From Leptotrichia sp. oral taxon 847 (GTDB taxonomy: Bacteria; Fusobacteriota; Fusobacteriia; Fusobacteriales; Leptotrichiaceae), in assembly GCF_001553645.1 (NCBI RefSeq), contig NZ_CP014231.1:1674001-1738000 (forward strand): DNA of 64,000 nt, read 5' to 3'. Below, one piece after another: positions 2,297 through 46,849 of the stretch. The translations under genes were made by a program, and so were the position numbers. Below the pieces are notes generated by a model. That model saw nothing but the letters and a program-made list of their open reading frames with translations, had not been told where the DNA came from and searched no databases. Position 1 is the first letter of the stretch; every line of letters starts with the position of its first letter.

Positions 2297-3013
2297 ATGG
2301 ATAAAGAAAATTTATTGATACCAAAACATATAGCAATTATTATGGATGGAAACGGGAGATGGGCAAAAAAGCGTGGAAAAATTAGATTAGAAGGACATAG
2401 AGCTGGGGCAAACAGCCTTGAGAAAATTTTAAGATATGCTGGTGAAATTGGAATAAAATATTTGACTGTTTATGCTTTTTCAACTGAAAATTGGAAGCGA
2501 CCGCAAAAAGAAGTAAGTGGTCTTATGGATTTATTTGGAAAATATTTGGACAAAGAGAAAAAGAATTTGAGGGAACAAGGTGTAAAGTTGGTTGTAACAG
2601 GGGAAAAAGAAAATATTTCTGAAAAGCTTCTAAAAAAAATTGAAGCTACAGAAAAATATTTAGAAAACTGTGATAAAATAACTTTTAATATAGCTTTTAA
2701 CTACGGTGGAAGAAGAGAAATTGTAAATGCGGTGAACAAAATTTTGATTGACAATAAGACAAAAAAATTTGAAAAAATAACCGAAGAAGAGTTTTCAAAG
2801 TATATGTACCGTCCAGAAATTCCAGATCCAGAGCTTGTAATTAGAACAAGCGGAGAATTCAGAATAAGTAATTTTTTACTCTGGGAAATCGCTTATTCGG
2901 AATTTTATATAACAGATGTTTTTTGGCCTGACTTTGATGAAAATGAATTAGATAAAGCGATTTTATCCTTTAATAAAAGGGATAGAAGATATGGAGGTTT
3001 GAATGTTAAGTAG
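2297..3013 (+). CDS. uppS: Undecaprenyl diphosphate synthase (cis-prenyltransferase)
   Basis: Makes undecaprenyl diphosphate, the lipid carrier for peptidoglycan and surface glycans, by adding isopentenyl units to farnesyl diphosphate. The family signature HIAIIMDGNGRWA near the N-terminus carries the catalytic Asp. Further conserved segments are the RxEGHRAG-like helix (RLEGHRAGANS), YAFSTENWKRP and, near the C-terminus, ELVIRTSGEFRISNFLLWE with the substrate-phosphate-binding arginines. I chose the ATG at 2297 because GAAAGG lies just upstream and the protein (238 aa) then has the usual length. An upstream in-frame ATG at 2240 would add 19 unlike residues. It overlaps cdsA by 11 nt, the common uppS-cdsA pairing, so the two are translationally coupled. 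Confidence 0.96.
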   Translation: MDKENLLIPKHIAIIMDGNGRWAKKRGKIRLEGHRAGANSLEKILRYAGEIGIKYLTVYAFSTENWKRPQKEVSGLMDLFGKYLDKEKKNLREQGVKLVVTGEKENISEKLLKKIEATEKYLENCDKITFNIAFNYGGRREIVNAVNKILIDNKTKKFEKITEEEFSKYMYRPEIPDPELVIRTSGEFRISNFLLWEIAYSEFYITDVFWPDFDENELDKAILSFNKRDRRYGGLNVK

Positions 3014-3981: not shown

Positions 3982-5205
3982 ATGACAGAATTAGAAATCA
4001 AACAAGAAGTGGAAAGACAATTTAATATTTTGAGTCGTGGTTGCGATGAAATAATAAATGAAGCTGAGTTTAAGAAAAAATTGGAAAAATCAATTGCAAC
4101 TAATACTCCATTGAGAGTAAAATTGGGGATTGATCCGACTGGATCTGATTTGCACTTGGGACATGCAGTGCCTTTGAGAAAATTGAAACAATTTCAGGAT
4201 TTAGGTCATGAAGTATTTTTCTTGATCGGAACATTTACTGGAAGAATCGGAGATCCGACAGGAAAATCAGAAACTAGAAAAATGTTGTCTGAAGAACAGG
4301 TTATGGAAAATATCAAGACTTATTTAGATCAAGTAAAATTGATATTGGACTTGGATAAAATAAATGTAGTTTACAACGCTGACTGGCTGGAAAAATTATC
4401 ACTATCAGATGCGTTAAATTTATTATCACAATTTACAGTATCGCAAATGATTTCGAGAGAAGATTTTTCAAAAAGACTGTCGGAAAATAAACCAGTTTCA
4501 TTGATAGAGTTTATGTATCCGATTTTACAAGGATACGATTCAGTTGAGTTACACGCCGATGTGGAATTAGGTGCGACAGAACAAAAATTCAATTTGTTAA
4601 GAGGAAGAGATTTGCAAAAAAACTTTGGTCAAGAGCAACAAATTTGTATGATAATGCCAATTTTAGTTGGACTTGATGGAGTGGAAAAAATGTCAAAATC
4701 ATTAGGAAATTATATCGGTGTAAAAGATACGCCAAATGATATGTTTGGTAAAGTTATGTCAATTTCAGATGAATTGATGGAAAATTATTATACAATGATA
4801 ACTGATGTTCCTTTTGAGAGAATTGAAGAAATTAAGGCACAAATCGCAGACGGAAGTTTACATCCAATGGAAGCTAAAAAACAATTAGGAGCTGAAGTTG
4901 TAAAAATTTACTACGGTGAAGAAGCTGCGAAAGAAGCTAGAGATTGGTTTGAAAATGTGTTCAGTAAAAAAAATCTGAATGTAGATTTGCCAGAAGTTGA
5001 ATTAGAGTATAAAGAAGTTGGAGTTATTGATTTATTGGTAAAAGACCTTAAAATGTTTAAAACAACGAGTGAAGCTAGAAGATTGATTCAGCAGGGTGGA
5101 TTTAAGATAAATGATGTGCCAATAAAAGATGTAAAAGCAACAGTTGTTCTTGAAAGCGGAATGATTGTGAGAGCTGGGAAGAAAAAAATTGTGAAAATTA
5201 AATAA
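3982..5205 (+). CDS. tyrS: Tyrosine-tRNA ligase, TyrZ-type
   Basis: Charges tRNA-Tyr in the cytoplasm. The class I HIGH motif appears as LHLGH in GIDPTGSDLHLGHAVPLRK, and the second motif is KMSKSLGNYIGV. A canonical KMSKS, in place of the KFGKT of ordinary TyrS, places it in the TyrZ subgroup. The C-terminal ~65 residues (from DLLVKDLKMFKTTSEARRLI) form an S4-like RNA-binding domain. At 407 aa the length is normal. The start follows AGAAGGAG. Only 49 nt separate it from cdsA, so there is no room for a T-box leader, and it probably belongs to the uppS-cdsA transcript. Confidence 0.95.
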   Translation: MTELEIKQEVERQFNILSRGCDEIINEAEFKKKLEKSIATNTPLRVKLGIDPTGSDLHLGHAVPLRKLKQFQDLGHEVFFLIGTFTGRIGDPTGKSETRKMLSEEQVMENIKTYLDQVKLILDLDKINVVYNADWLEKLSLSDALNLLSQFTVSQMISREDFSKRLSENKPVSLIEFMYPILQGYDSVELHADVELGATEQKFNLLRGRDLQKNFGQEQQICMIMPILVGLDGVEKMSKSLGNYIGVKDTPNDMFGKVMSISDELMENYYTMITDVPFERIEEIKAQIADGSLHPMEAKKQLGAEVVKIYYGEEAAKEARDWFENVFSKKNLNVDLPEVELEYKEVGVIDLLVKDLKMFKTTSEARRLIQQGGFKINDVPIKDVKATVVLESGMIVRAGKKKIVKIK

Positions 5206-39624: not shown

Positions 39625-39819
39625 ATGGCAGTACCTAAGAAAAGAACATCCAAAGCTAAAAGAAATATGAGAAGAGCACATGATGCAATCACAGCGCCAA
39701 ATGTTATAGTAGAAGCTGATGGAACAGTGAGAAGACCTCACAGATTAAATTTAGAAACAGGAGTATACAGAGGAAGACAAGTATTAAAAACTGATGACAA
39801 TACTACAGAAGCTGAATAA
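39625..39819 (+). CDS. rpmF: 50S ribosomal protein L32, cysteine-free form
   Basis: A 64-residue protein that begins MAVPKKRTSKAKRNMRRAHD, the L32 signature, then ITAPNVIVEADGTVRRPHRL and TGVYRGRQVLK. The four zinc-binding cysteines of C+ L32 proteins are absent, so it is a C- form. Many bacteria use such a form as their only L32, so this alone is not odd. It is monocistronic, with its promoter beside a mobile element and a terminator just after the stop. Confidence 0.95.
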   Translation: MAVPKKRTSKAKRNMRRAHDAITAPNVIVEADGTVRRPHRLNLETGVYRGRQVLKTDDNTTEAE

Positions 39820-39823
39820 TTAC

Positions 39824-39850
39824 AGGAGTTTAAAAGCTCCTATTTTTTTT
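39824..39850 (+). terminator. Terminator after rpmF
   Basis: AGGAG (39824-39828) and CTCCT (39837-39841) with additional A-T pairs, followed by A and eight Ts. Confidence 0.8.
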
Positions 39851-40114
39851 GGAAATTATTTTAAGAAAATCAAAATAGGAAATCTTTTATTTATCCTTAA
39901 ATATTTTATTCTGTCTTTATATGTTAGTAAAGTTTGAATTTCTGATGTGTTCTTATTTTTTTATAAGTAAAAATAAAATATAAAAAAAATCTTTTTTATT
40001 AAAAAAATAAAAAAATATTTGTGTAAAACTAGTGATTTAGGTAAATTCTTAGATTAATCTTTAAAAAATAAATAAAAAAGTCATATATTTTTTAAAATTT
40101 CTTAGAAAAAGTAC

Positions 40115-40142
40115 TTGCTTTTTTTTTTTTTTTTGCTAAAAT
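40115..40142 (+). promoter_or_regulatory. Likely autotransporter promoter with a 16-T tract in the spacer
   Basis: TTGCTT (40115-40120) and TAAAAT (40137-40142) are 16 nt apart. The run of 16 consecutive Ts (40119-40134) fills nearly the whole spacer. Gain or loss of Ts by slippage would change the -35 to -10 distance and so promoter strength, as in known phase-variable surface genes. The rest of 39851-40114 is AT-rich with nothing else recognisable. Confidence 0.6.
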
Positions 40143-40169
40143 TAGAGCGTAAGATAAAGATTTTTTATG

Positions 40170-40238
40170 GAAAGTGAAAAAATTTTGAATTATCACTCAC
40201 TCATTAAAAAAAAATTATTCCTTAATTTTTTTACTTTC
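40170..40238 (+). promoter_or_regulatory. Hairpin in the 5' untranslated region of the autotransporter
   Basis: GAAAGTGAAAAAATT (40170-40184) pairs with AATTTTTTTACTTTC (40224-40238) over 15 bp with one G-T pair. It would lie in the ~145-nt leader and could affect stability or translation. Confidence 0.5.
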
Positions 40239-40294
40239 AAAAAAATTTTTAGAATACAAAAAATATGTGAAAAAATTTTTGAAAGGAAATCATT

Positions 40295-43200
40295 ATGAAA
40301 AGCAATAATTTAAAACAACTCAAAAAAGATTTAAAAGCTTTTGCCAAAAGAGTAAAAGACTTTAAATACACAGAATCAGCGCTGATTACATTCCTTTTGA
40401 CAGGAATGGTAATGCTTGGCGCTTCAAATTTAACATTTTCTGCTCAGGATGAGATAACAGCTCAGACTAAGCAAATAAATAGCTCAATAAGCGATATAAG
40501 ACAGCAGTTTAAAAGAGCTAGAACTGAAAATAATAAATTACTTAGAGATACAAATCTTGAACTTATCCAATTAATGGAACAAGGGGATCACGTTGTAAAA
40601 TCGCCTTGGAGCAGCTGGCAATACGGGATAAACTATTTTTATAATGACTGGCATGGACATTATAGAGGCAGAGGGGATAAGACAGACAGCTTTGTTTACA
40701 AAAGAGATGATTCAATCGTAAACAGAAGCGTTTACCCAGGAAGAATTGAAACAAAATACGGAGCAACAACATTAGGACTGGTAAGAGAGCCAAATGCCGC
40801 AATGGACGTATCGGCAGCACTGACACCAAAGAGCGTAGATAAAATAGCACCTAAATTTACAGTTCAAGGAGCAGGAGGAGGCTTTCCGAATTTTGTGACA
40901 AGGATAGTGAAAGTTCCAGGAGAACCTGGCGTAGTTAATCCTGTTATCCCAAGAACTTTAGTTTTATCATTTACATCTGGTGGAGCAGATCCTACTCATA
41001 CTCGTTATTCATATTGGATGGATAATAAGGGAGATATTTCAGGAACTTCTGTAGCAAATGGAGAAGTATATAAAACTTATTCAAGCATTACTTCATGGAA
41101 TACTTATAATGGAGCTTTTTCAGGAACTATACGAACTAGTGCATTTAATGGAGCGAGTGTAACTCCAGGAACAGATGCTGCTCTATATGGTGGAACTTCG
41201 CCTAAAAGTAATTATACAAATAGTGAAAATAGTAGCAATTTGTTTTTTAATACATTGACAAACACACCTTATTCATATTTTGGAAATGGAACGAAAATAG
41301 CATTAATAACTCCTTCATCATCTTTTCAATCAGGTGCTTACCATAGGGGAACTGTAATTAATTTGGAAACGGAAGGAAAGACAGGAAAAACTTTTAGTGA
41401 CTTGAATACTGGGCATATAATTACAGCGGATCAATATAATAGAATTCAAAATTATATGAGTAAAAGTAATTTAAATGCAAATACAAATGGACAATTATAT
41501 CATACAAATAATGGAATTGTAGAAATTGGAGGAACGGGAACACGATATGTTCATACAACTGTTAATGGTGGTAATCAAAGATTAAATATCGTTGAAAATA
41601 ATGGTAAGATTATAGGAATAAATTATAATCATAATAATGTTACTACAAGTGATAATATTGTTTTTTTTCATTCGCCAGATTTAGCAGGAAATAATGATTA
41701 TCAACATTTGTATGCTAATTCTAAAAATGGAGAAATTTCTTTATATGGACAGGGTGGAGCAGTAGCCTTATATACAGCAGCTAAAAATGTAAATTCTACA
41801 TTGGAACAAGGCGATGTTTCATTTATAAATGAAGGAACAATAAATTTATATGGTAAAGAAAATGTTGGAGTTGCAATAAATAATGACACATATGGAAAAG
41901 TAACACCAAAAACTAATTTTATTTTATTAAAACCAATTAATATTTATGGAGATAATGCGGTAGGACTTTATAATGCCAACAGTGGTGACGGGACAAGAAA
42001 TGATAAAAATGAGGCAAGATTTATAATAGGAAATCAATCTCAAAATAAGCTACTAACTTATACTTCTTCAAATTCACTATTAAGTGGAAGTTATACTGCA
42101 AACAGTTCTGCTAGTGATACAGGATATAGTAATAAATACACTGAAGGAGTTATAGGAATTTATCAGGATGCTAATGGTACATTAAAATCAGCACTTCCTG
42201 AATTAACTATGGAGGCTTTTACGAGAAAATCAGTTGGAATATATACTAAAAACGGAAATGTAGATATAGATCATGGAACTGTAATAACAAATAAAGGTAA
42301 AATCAGTATGTTAGGTGGGGAAGAGAATGTTGGGTTATATGCTTCTGGTGGAGGAATTTCCTTTAAGGGAGACATAGAAATGGGAGGTTCAGCTTCTACT
42401 TTATCGGATGCTATAACAACAGGATATAAAAATACAGCAGTATATGCTACTAATTCAAATAAAGTTACAGTGAAAGGAGGTATTACAACTGATAAGAATG
42501 GTAAGGAATTAACAGAAAGTACAGTTGTTTATGCTAATAAATCCTCAGAAGTTGTTTTAAATGGAGAGAATGACATTAAACTAAAAGCAGCTTCAAAAAC
42601 AATAACAAATTCTACTGGTAATAATACTGGAGTTTTTGTTGAAGATGCAACAGTAATGTTCGGTGATAATAATAAGGGAACTCCTTTACCTACTGGAACT
42701 ACAACTGGAAGTAGTACAAAAGGTTCATCAATCACAATTACTAGTGATGATCGTAAATTGGGAACAGCGTTGTATGCTAAAAATGGTGGAATGATAAATG
42801 CAATTGGAGATTCGTTAGCTAAAGGGTTAAAAATCACAGTAAAGGATGGAGCTTCGGCAGTAGCATCAGTAGGAAAAAATTCAAGTAGTAAAGTTTCTCA
42901 AATAAATGTTAAATATTCGACAGTTGATTATGATGGTGAAGGATTTGCATTTTATACAGATACAGATGGAAAAATTAATGCAGATAATTCTAAAGTAAAA
43001 TTATCAGGAAAAGCAGTAGGATTTGGTATAAAAGGGACTTCATCAGGAGGATATACTTCAAATGTATCGTTATCAAATGCTAATTTTGAAATAGCCTCAG
43101 ATGATGTTATATTAATGAATGTTCTTAATCCAAGTGTATTAAAACTAAGTAATTTTGTTTCAACATTATCAGCAGCTTCAGGATTAAGTGCAAGTAATAT

Positions 43201-46200
43201 TACTACAAATGGTCCAGGAGCAGGAGATAATTATAAACTAGCGGTTGTAGAAGGATTGAATAATGGAAAGTCATTTATATTTGATAATGATTTAGATAAA
43301 AGTTTAGCAGTAAGCTCTTCTAATTCATCAACAAATGATTATAAATATGTTCGCAATTTTTTGATTCAAAGAAGTATATTGGATGTAAATGCTGATGTAA
43401 AAGCAGTGTTAAGCTCAGCAGATGCCAATACAATTAAAAATGTTGCTTCGGGCGCACCGGTTATCGGACTTGACATTAGTTCAAGCACTGGGGCTGCAAG
43501 TAATGCGGAAACAGGAATTAATGTAAACGGTAAAACTGTAACGGTTGACAGAACGGATGCAGGTGCTGGAGCAATCGGGCTATATACAAACTTTGGTAAA
43601 ATTAATATAAACAGTGGAACTTTGAATGTTGAAACAGATACTACTAATACTGTGAATGATCAGGCTGTGGGAGTTTATGCTGTAAATGGATCAGAAGTTA
43701 ATAATAATGGTGGAAATATTAATGTTGGCGGTAAAAATTCGATTGGTATTTTAGGGCTTGCATATAGGGAAAATTCTGCAGGAACTGTAATTGGTAATGA
43801 ATTTGGGTCTGCTAATGAAGGAAAAGCAACTATAAATAATGATGGTAAGATTACTATGGATGGTGAAGGAGCTAAAGGAGTATTTATTAAGAATAATAAT
43901 AGTGCTTCATCTGTAGCGGCAAATGTTGCAAATAATTTATCGAATGGTGTAATTACAATGTCTGGAGCAGGTTCGGTTGGAATGTATGCCGATAAGGCAA
44001 CTCTTAACAATTATGGAAAGATTGATTTGAAACCAGGAACTAATGCTAAGATAGGTATGTATGGAATTAATGGCTCTGATCTTACAAACCAAGCGACAGG
44101 ACAAATTATAGTTGGAGATTCTGTTATTTCATCAGCAACTGATGTGCCTAATATTGGTATGTATACATCAGAAAGTAATTTGTTGAAAAACTATGGAATT
44201 ATAGATATTAAAGAAAATTCTTATGGAATTTATGGAGAAAATGTTCAAGCCTTTGGTACTTCCAAGATTAAAGTGGGTAAAAATGGTGTTGGAATATTTG
44301 CTAAAGGAACATCTGGAACTGGAACTGTAACGTTGGACGCAGGTTCTGAGATTACGACAGTTGCAAGTGCAAAAGATAAGGAAGCAGTTGGAGTATTTAC
44401 AGCGGGAACTAATCCTGTAAATATAAACGATAACGGTTCAAAAATGGATCTTAAGGACTGGACATTTGGATACGTAATAAAAGCTCCTGGAACATTGACT
44501 ACAAATGGAAGTTCAACTGTAACGTTAGATAATGAAGCTGTTTATGCATATTCTGATAATGATTCTTCGATAATTAAGAACTATGCACCAATTAAAGCAA
44601 ATGGCGATAGAAACTATGGAATTTATTCATCAGGTACAGTTGACAACTATGGAAATATGGATTTGAGATCTGGAAATGGTGTAGGTAATATTGGTATTTA
44701 TTCAACAAAAGGAGTTGCAACAAACTGGGCAACAATTGATACTGGTAAAACAAACAAGACTACAAAATCGTATGGAATTGGTATGGCAACAGGTTATTAT
44801 GATGGAACTTCATCAAGAAATCAAGGAACTATTATAAATAAAGGCACAATTAATGTAACAGAAGAAAATAGTATAGGAATGTATGCAGTTGGAAGAGGTT
44901 CTAAAGCAATTAATGCCGCTGGAGGAATAATTAACCTTAGCGGTAAAAATACAATTGGTATGTACATCGATCAGGAAGCGGAAGGTGAAAACTACGGTAC
45001 TATTACAGGTAACGGAGATAATTTGAAAGGTGTTGTAGTGGCAAATCAAGGTAAATTCAAAAACTATGGTACAATTCAAATTACTGGAAATAAAGGTATA
45101 GGAATTTATACTGATAAAGGTGTAGTGTCTGCTGACGGTATAGATGGGCCTGGAGCCGTAAATACAGGATCTTTTAAAAATGTATATGAATCACAGCCAA
45201 CTGACGAAAAAGTCGAAGGAAGCGTAACAATAAAGGTTCCGCCAAAGGCAACTCCAGTAACAGTTACAATAAATGGAGTGCAAGTTCCAATAACAGGCGT
45301 TGACACAAACGTTGCCTCGCCTTCAGCAACCGAAGTAACAGTTACATCGCCTTCAGGAGTTACAGTATTAGATCTTGCAAAATCAGGGCTTATGAATTTC
45401 CCTTCAGGATCTAAAGCAACAAGTGTAGGAATGTATGTTGATACATCTGGAATAAAATATACAAATCCTATTCAAGGATTAAGTAATTTAGCAGGACTTA
45501 CAGATATTAACCTGTATTTTGGAACGGAAGCTGCAAGATATACAAATGCTAGAGCGATAGAACTAGGAGATAATATAATAAAACCATATAACGATGCACT
45601 TGCAAGCTTAGTTACAACTGGAACAGTGTTAAATACTAATTCAAGCAGCCTTACATGGTTAGCAATACCAACAAAATCAGCGGCTACAGGATTGTATGAC
45701 AAAGTATATCTGGTTAAAATTCCATATACAGACTTTGTAAGTGCAAAAGATCCTAATACTTACAATTTCTTAAATGGACTGGAACAAAGATACGGTGTTG
45801 AAGGGCTTGGTACGAGAGAAAAGGAACTGTTTAATAAATTAAATGATCTTGGAAAAGGTGAACAGCATATCTTTACACAGGCTGTAGATGAAATGAAAGG
45901 ACATCAATATGCAAATGTTCAACAAAGAATCAATGCCACTGGAAATACTTTGGATAATGAATTTGGATATTTAAGAAATGAATGGAGAAATCCAACTAAA
46001 CAAAATAACAAGATTAAAGTGTTTGGTGCCAGAGACGAATACAATACCGATACTGCTGGAATTATCGATTATAAGAGCAATGCTTATGGTGTAGCTTATG
46101 TCCATGAAGATGAAACAGTTAAGATGGGTAATTCAAGTGGATGGTACGCTGGAGCTGTAACAAATAGATTTAGATTTAAGGATTTAGGAAAATCAAAAGA

Positions 46201-46849
46201 AGATCAGACTATGGTTAAACTAGGAATTTTCAAAACAATGTCGCCAGCAGCTGATCATAATGGAGCATTACAATGGACAATTGCAGGAGATGTATTTGCA
46301 GGAATTAATCACATGAAACGTAGATTCTGGATAGTTGATGATACATTTGAAGCAAAATCTGATTATAATTCTTATGGTGCTGCCTTGAAAACTGATATAG
46401 GATATGATATCAGAATGAGTGAAAGAACACATTTACGTCCATATGGAGCTTTGAAAATGGAATACGGAAGATTCAATAAGATAAAAGAAGATAATGGTGA
46501 AATGAGATTAGAAGTGAAAGGAAACGACTATTTCTCAGTAAAACCAGAAGTTGGAGTTGAATTTAAATATGTACAGCCGCTTGCTGTGAGAACAAATCTA
46601 ACAGTAGGATTGTCAGCTGCTTATGAAAATGAGTTAGGAAAATTACAAGATCAAAATCAGGCAAGAGTAAGATATACAACAGCTGGTTGGTATGATTTAG
46701 AAAAAGAAAAAGAAGATAGAAGAGGAAACGGTAAGTTTGACTTGAATATCGGAATTGACAATACAAGATTCGGAGTGACAGTAAATGGAGGATACGACAC
46801 TAAAGGTAACAATATAAGAGGTGGACTAGGACTTAGATTAATTTACTAG
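40295..46849 (+). CDS. Giant type V autotransporter adhesin
   Basis: A surface protein of 2184 aa. Residues 1-50 form the extended N-terminal signal of fusobacterial autotransporters (MKSNNLKQLKKDLKAFAKRV, then LITFLLTGMVMLGASNLTFS). A short coiled coil (residues ~50-90, QIRQQFKRARTENNKLLRD-like) follows. The passenger, to about residue 1700, is Asn/Gly/Thr-rich and built of beta-helix units of the type NYGTI-x-x-x-G-x-x-x-GIGIY (for example NKGIGIYTDKG, ENSIGMYAVGRG). The last ~285 residues are the beta-barrel (IKVFGARDEYNTDTAG to GGLGLRLIY), ending in an aromatic residue as needed for Bam-dependent assembly. Likely an adhesin or aggregation factor; the ligand cannot be told. A strong GAAAGGAAA ribosome binding site precedes it, and a terminator follows. 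Confidence 0.92.
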   Translation: MKSNNLKQLKKDLKAFAKRVKDFKYTESALITFLLTGMVMLGASNLTFSAQDEITAQTKQINSSISDIRQQFKRARTENNKLLRDTNLELIQLMEQGDHVVKSPWSSWQYGINYFYNDWHGHYRGRGDKTDSFVYKRDDSIVNRSVYPGRIETKYGATTLGLVREPNAAMDVSAALTPKSVDKIAPKFTVQGAGGGFPNFVTRIVKVPGEPGVVNPVIPRTLVLSFTSGGADPTHTRYSYWMDNKGDISGTSVANGEVYKTYSSITSWNTYNGAFSGTIRTSAFNGASVTPGTDAALYGGTSPKSNYTNSENSSNLFFNTLTNTPYSYFGNGTKIALITPSSSFQSGAYHRGTVINLETEGKTGKTFSDLNTGHIITADQYNRIQNYMSKSNLNANTNGQLYHTNNGIVEIGGTGTRYVHTTVNGGNQRLNIVENNGKIIGINYNHNNVTTSDNIVFFHSPDLAGNNDYQHLYANSKNGEISLYGQGGAVALYTAAKNVNSTLEQGDVSFINEGTINLYGKENVGVAINNDTYGKVTPKTNFILLKPINIYGDNAVGLYNANSGDGTRNDKNEARFIIGNQSQNKLLTYTSSNSLLSGSYTANSSASDTGYSNKYTEGVIGIYQDANGTLKSALPELTMEAFTRKSVGIYTKNGNVDIDHGTVITNKGKISMLGGEENVGLYASGGGISFKGDIEMGGSASTLSDAITTGYKNTAVYATNSNKVTVKGGITTDKNGKELTESTVVYANKSSEVVLNGENDIKLKAASKTITNSTGNNTGVFVEDATVMFGDNNKGTPLPTGTTTGSSTKGSSITITSDDRKLGTALYAKNGGMINAIGDSLAKGLKITVKDGASAVASVGKNSSSKVSQINVKYSTVDYDGEGFAFYTDTDGKINADNSKVKLSGKAVGFGIKGTSSGGYTSNVSLSNANFEIASDDVILMNVLNPSVLKLSNFVSTLSAASGLSASNITTNGPGAGDNYKLAVVEGLNNGKSFIFDNDLDKSLAVSSSNSSTNDYKYVRNFLIQRSILDVNADVKAVLSSADANTIKNVASGAPVIGLDISSSTGAASNAETGINVNGKTVTVDRTDAGAGAIGLYTNFGKININSGTLNVETDTTNTVNDQAVGVYAVNGSEVNNNGGNINVGGKNSIGILGLAYRENSAGTVIGNEFGSANEGKATINNDGKITMDGEGAKGVFIKNNNSASSVAANVANNLSNGVITMSGAGSVGMYADKATLNNYGKIDLKPGTNAKIGMYGINGSDLTNQATGQIIVGDSVISSATDVPNIGMYTSESNLLKNYGIIDIKENSYGIYGENVQAFGTSKIKVGKNGVGIFAKGTSGTGTVTLDAGSEITTVASAKDKEAVGVFTAGTNPVNINDNGSKMDLKDWTFGYVIKAPGTLTTNGSSTVTLDNEAVYAYSDNDSSIIKNYAPIKANGDRNYGIYSSGTVDNYGNMDLRSGNGVGNIGIYSTKGVATNWATIDTGKTNKTTKSYGIGMATGYYDGTSSRNQGTIINKGTINVTEENSIGMYAVGRGSKAINAAGGIINLSGKNTIGMYIDQEAEGENYGTITGNGDNLKGVVVANQGKFKNYGTIQITGNKGIGIYTDKGVVSADGIDGPGAVNTGSFKNVYESQPTDEKVEGSVTIKVPPKATPVTVTINGVQVPITGVDTNVASPSATEVTVTSPSGVTVLDLAKSGLMNFPSGSKATSVGMYVDTSGIKYTNPIQGLSNLAGLTDINLYFGTEAARYTNARAIELGDNIIKPYNDALASLVTTGTVLNTNSSSLTWLAIPTKSAATGLYDKVYLVKIPYTDFVSAKDPNTYNFLNGLEQRYGVEGLGTREKELFNKLNDLGKGEQHIFTQAVDEMKGHQYANVQQRINATGNTLDNEFGYLRNEWRNPTKQNNKIKVFGARDEYNTDTAGIIDYKSNAYGVAYVHEDETVKMGNSSGWYAGAVTNRFRFKDLGKSKEDQTMVKLGIFKTMSPAADHNGALQWTIAGDVFAGINHMKRRFWIVDDTFEAKSDYNSYGAALKTDIGYDIRMSERTHLRPYGALKMEYGRFNKIKEDNGEMRLEVKGNDYFSVKPEVGVEFKYVQPLAVRTNLTVGLSAAYENELGKLQDQNQARVRYTTAGWYDLEKEKEDRRGNGKFDLNIGIDNTRFGVTVNGGYDTKGNNIRGGLGLRLIY

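Follow-up and report, generated by a model that had tools for sequence, protein, structure and literature searches.

Poly-T tracts in the promoter spacers of nine paralogous autotransporter genes of Leptotrichia: a putative family of phase-variation switches

A pure run of 16 T's lies between a -35-like and a -10-like hexamer about 150 nt upstream of an open reading frame (ORF) for a 2184-residue autotransporter, within the stretch of 64,000 nucleotides that was analysed here and is referred to as the window in the following. We consider it likely that slippage at this tract brings about phase variation at the level of transcription, and that the site is one of nine such switches in the autotransporter family of this genome. 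In the mechanism that we propose, slipped-strand mispairing during replication would lead to the gain or loss of T's and thereby alter the distance between the TTG of the -35 and the TANAAT of the -10 element. Promoters with spacers near 16-17 nt would be strong and those with spacers of 15 nt, or of 18 nt and beyond, weak, such that each cell lineage would, at random, express the surface autotransporter either strongly or weakly. The same device would be present at nine paralogous genes of the Fap2/RadD type, and as each has its own tract, independent slippage could yield many adhesin combinations across a population. Promoter activity, slippage in culture and the dependence of expression on tract length are all predictions from the DNA sequence.

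The anatomy of the site is given in Table 1. The tract and the -35 element overlap, with the final TT of TTGCTT also forming the beginning of the run, and the tract is found in the context AGTACTTGC-T16-GCTAAAATTAG. The earlier note on this DNA had described a 16-nt spacer consisting almost entirely of 16 T's. Both the spacer length and the run of 16 hold, but owing to the overlap the spacer itself comprises 14 T's and a GC. The two boxes match the consensus at 8 of 12 positions, and a consensus promoter scanner returned no call for the window promoter. We read the site as a promoter because the TTG/TANAAT frame recurs in the paralogs, some of which have near-consensus boxes (TTGCCA...TATAAT). 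The predicted 5' UTR includes a CACTCACTC block (40195-40205) that is common to the paralogs. In many of their 5' UTRs, this block is followed by a weak inverted repeat, AAACTATTC..GATAGTTT, which is conserved in the family. A conserved RNA structure was considered as well and is unsupported, as no significant fold was found in the 5' UTR of the window (z -1.24).

Table 1. Features around the T16 tract, in window coordinates
Feature	Position	Strand	Basis or remark
Short upstream ORF	39625..39819	+	sequence
Intrinsic terminator of the upstream gene (AGGAGTTTAAAAGCTCCT + T run)	39824..39851	+	sole terminator found in the region
-35-like hexamer TTGCTT	40115..40120	+	sequence; CTTG conserved in 9/9 pure-tract paralogous promoters
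Pure T16 tract, proposed slippage site	40119..40134	+	sequence
Spacer	40121..40136	+	16 nt; GC at 40135-40136
-10-like hexamer TAAAAT	40137..40142	+	TATAAT, TACAAT or TAAAAT in the paralogs
Predicted 5' UTR	40149..40294	+	inferred start, assumed ~7 nt past the -10
Shine-Dalgarno-like AAAGGA	40282..40287	+	sequence; 7 nt ahead of the ATG
2184-aa autotransporter ORF	40295..46849	+	ORF call, Pfam and NCBIfam domains
fuso_auto_Nterm domain NF033175	40316..40684	+	residues 8-130; 167 bits (cut-off 55)
Autotransporter beta-barrel domain PF03797	46016..46783	+	residues 1908-2163; E 9e-27

That the downstream gene encodes an autotransporter of 2184 residues, as had been proposed, is confirmed by the ORF and by its Pfam autotransporter beta-domain. 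The presence of both an N-terminal NF033175 domain and a PF03797 barrel places the protein among the fusobacterial type V autotransporters, and the Fap2 structure 9qe7 gives a match to residues 55-136. The RadD equivalog NF049908 scores 648 bits against a cut-off of 3500, so the resemblance to RadD stays below the cut-off. The protein presumably acts as an adhesin. The short ORF upstream looks to us like ribosomal protein L32 (rpmF). A search of a plasmid collection gave one weak Fusobacterium match.

The decisive evidence for the promoter-tract architecture is its recurrence. Six other sites in the genome, as well as sites in related species, align with the window promoter region. Eight of the ten runs of at least 14 T's in the 2.19-Mb genome, together with one T13, share the layout CTTG(N0-3)T13-18 G.. 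TANAAT, such that the homopolymer is found between the -35 and -10 elements at the window site and at eight sister promoters. Each of the nine is located ~150-180 nt ahead of a paralogous autotransporter ORF of ~1850-2300 aa, two of which are now split by frameshifts, and a reversed-pattern control returned no site in 13 genomes of the genus. The genome has 11 genes with a fuso_auto_Nterm domain above the cut-off and 17 autotransporter barrels; nine of the 11 promoters carry a pure tract, one carries T9-C-T7 and one is of another type. While the architecture described in the earlier note thus stands, its restriction to one promoter switch at one gene does not, as it extends to nine paralogous adhesin promoters. 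Within the genus, pure T13-19 runs before autotransporters are kept only in this genome and in that of a related species, G006. In the other genera of the family, T12 followed by TATAAT in the same layout is absent, except for one isolated site in G015. Frameshifts interrupt three of the autotransporter paralogs, at L070 (~4126-4315), L072 (near a G6 at 4291) and L067 (~2844-2883, reverse strand); these could be pseudogenes, cases of slippage within the coding sequence or assembly errors.

Between near-identical paralogous promoters, the number of T's is the main difference. For instance, the 204k and 232k promoters have T16 and T13, respectively, within flanks that are identical for 77 bp before the run and for 208 bp after it. 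The 232k and 249k promoters (T13/T14) are identical over 295 bp downstream and 7 bp upstream, and a third pair, 486k and 2084k, has T16/T18. The two pure-tract promoters of G006 have T19 and T18. One of the loci in that genome, 1383k, is syntenic with 486k, with a P-type ATPase-like ORF before and the same ORF after it, and the tract lengths are T19 there and T16 here. In these comparisons, paralogs and species serve as stand-ins for strains, with one genome per species, and assembled homopolymer lengths may be wrong; the identity of the paralog flanks could partly result from gene conversion.

The spacers of the nine pure-tract promoters measure 15 nt (the T13 site), 16 nt (five promoters) and 18 nt (three promoters), and those of the two G006 promoters 17 and 18 nt. 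In a list of 99 genomic TTGA..TATAAT sites, with no T run longer than 8, spacers of 16 nt (n=20) and 17 nt (n=29) are preferred over other lengths (~7-14 sites for each). The pure-tract spacers are thus found both on and off this preferred length, with four of nine off and the 16 nt of the window on it. By comparison, homologous T-rich promoters with interrupting bases nearly all have spacers of 16-17 nt; the T9-C-T7 form, for example, is invariant across three species, each time with a spacer of 16 nt. In total, 9 of 10 interrupted and 6 of 11 pure-tract promoters are on the optimum (p = 0.09, including one doubtful promoter call at the 410k locus), a contrast that is only suggestive. The earlier proposal that slippage alters the -35/-10 distance is strengthened by the nine shared architectures, by the differing T numbers in near-identical flanks and by spacers on and off 16-17 nt.

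The main rival to such a switch is a constitutive promoter in which the T's of the spacer have a structural task, as rigid or bent A/T-tract DNA that aids the polymerase, and in which tract length drifts in a mostly neutral manner and hardly influences expression. A structural role of the T-rich spacer is possible, because related promoters have T-rich spacers without long pure runs. The homologous promoters of G006 and G009, for instance, are T-rich yet interrupted and have spacers of 16-17 nt, from which it follows that T-richness is older than purity; moreover, 16 nt is also the most common length among the nine promoters of this genome (5/9). Nevertheless, we regard a purely structural tract as unlikely, given that the pure T13-19 runs, confined to two genomes, lie far beyond the genomic run-length distribution, that slippage is generally expected at such lengths and that four of the nine promoters depart from the optimum. 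As the genome encodes MutS, a general increase in slippage is not to be inferred.

Clearly less probable still is that slippage occurs but merely tunes expression, shifting promoter strength gradually or via the binding of a factor, with no on and off states. Such tuning, which has been proposed for T tracts close to other adhesin promoters, would be in keeping with the small increments in spacing that one-base steps bring about and with the promoter-region poly-T of Helicobacter pylori sabA, which is variable and of similar length (PMC2715451), but the tract is located strictly between the -35 and -10 elements in 9/9 promoters, and spacing dominates in Neisseria fetA (PMC5320596).

Taken by itself, the T16 run is a weak signal and only mildly unusual: in a window with 70% A+T, 11 of 100 dinucleotide shuffles contained a T16. 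The real run-length distribution of the window is much steeper than that of the shuffles, the next longest A/T run being 9, with no runs of 10-15. For the genome, an extrapolation that assumes geometric decay predicts about 0.16 runs of length 14 or more, versus 10 found; the genome-wide statistics are based on pattern searches and chosen stretches. We see next to no room for reading the run as an intrinsic terminator tail, or as an A+T-rich stretch that arose by chance and has nothing to do with the gene. Base composition and shuffles would allow such a reading, but it is largely refuted by the recurrence of the architecture at nine homologous promoters and is at odds with the upstream gene having a terminator of its own. 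A search of the region for terminators gave only this one, which is separate from the T16 tract, and the tract is not preceded by a G+C-rich stem.

A homopolymer within a promoter is also found elsewhere in this genome. At G000:C1:2017870-2017901 (-), a G14 lies inside the consensus promoter TTGACA-AAATAC-G14-TATAAT, with a spacer of 20 nt. The occurrence of a G14 in a promoter spacer despite the composition of the genome supports the notion of a lineage that uses promoter-spacer slippage. The promoter is followed by a small ORF encoding a double-glycine leader (ELNEVELMTIDGG), then by one for a membrane protein and one that looks like a C39-peptidase exporter. In the species G010 (G010:C5:57111-57139), the same promoter has a G11 and a spacer of 17 nt; the exporter is shared between the two genomes, whereas the peptide differs. 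A family search gave a sub-threshold match only. The site is likely a phase-variable bacteriocin promoter, a bacteriocin being suggested by inspection of these ORFs. A G11 run at G000:C1:442212-442222 is intergenic and lies upstream of a tRNA-gene-like sequence.

Long T runs in other Leptotrichia genomes were considered as instances of the same device and set aside, since they are mostly A-strand runs beside TTCTAATC and before other genes. Tracts of A16-23 recur in many Leptotrichia genomes, often adjoining TTCTAATC (L079, L230, L241, L249, L256 and others), and in at least five species a conserved nuclease-like gene (MGFINPFQIYSKGE) has a tract of this kind, of varying length, ~50 nt ahead of its start. 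Such tracts may be small repeat elements or mark a further promoter of variable length. Tracts of A16-22 are also seen in 5' UTRs, 18-30 nt before the ATG, at G009:C1:393353, G012:C1:506755 and G008:C1:127432; we take the genes that follow, named by eye, to be glycerophosphotransferase-like, autotransporter-like and PTS permease-like, respectively.

Fusobacterial autotransporters of the Fap2/RadD family bind host cells and other oral bacteria. Nine giant adhesins of this type on independently slipping poly-T tracts, together with a bacteriocin-type operon on poly-G, might form a promoter-spacer phasome with combinatorial states of surface and competition, a broader picture to which we give even odds. 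If the nine adhesins do switch independently, strain comparisons, adhesion assays and the choice of antigens from a single state would mislead. Promoter-spacer phase variation would, moreover, reach the Fusobacteriota, for which the open-access literature on phase variation in Leptotrichia and Fusobacterium contained no report of a switch of this kind.

By their anatomy, the tracts fall into the class of promoter-spacer phase variation that is exemplified by porA, fetA and vlp, with the switching itself being putative. The poly-T of H. pylori sabA, by contrast, is located elsewhere in the promoter region, not between -35 and -10. This adhesin gene has a promoter-region poly-T of 13-19, which resembles the tracts described here in length and varies within strains (PMC2715451, in which a position between -35 and -10 is not stated), and additionally carries a CT repeat in its coding sequence. 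Regarding the encoded proteins, the conservation of Fap2/RadD-type autotransporters in Leptotrichia has been described in a paper in which we found no mention of phase variation (PMC12397386); the 2184-residue protein shares with them the conserved N-terminal domain NF033175 and the beta-barrel, but is shorter than both Fap2 and RadD. Neisseria provides the precedent that had been invoked for this site: in fetA and porA, a homopolymer in the promoter of an outer-membrane protein gene changes -35/-10 spacing or promoter output with its length (PMC5320596), and opc, according to a reference in PMC5084427, has a promoter-spacer tract of the same class. As here, the promoter with the homopolymer is of the sigma-70 type and serves an outer-membrane protein gene, but the neisserial tracts are poly-G/C (mixed T and G in porA) and belong to single genes, whereas those described here are poly-T, precede nine paralogs and are known from sequence alone. 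In Mycoplasma mycoides vmm, a repeat within the promoter spacer likewise sets a surface protein ON or OFF (Persson 2002, as cited in PMC10502178), but it is a dinucleotide repeat at a single gene. Finally, in the vlp system of Mycoplasma hyorhinis, the transcription of each surface gene is set ON or OFF by a separate A/T homopolymer located in its promoter region (Citti and Wise 1995, as cited in PMC10502178). The autotransporter genes are likewise a surface-gene family in which each of the nine members has its own A/T promoter tract; yet while the Vlp proteins are small lipoproteins, encoded in a cluster in a wall-less relative of the firmicutes, those considered here are very large type V autotransporters, encoded at dispersed loci in a Gram-negative bacterium.
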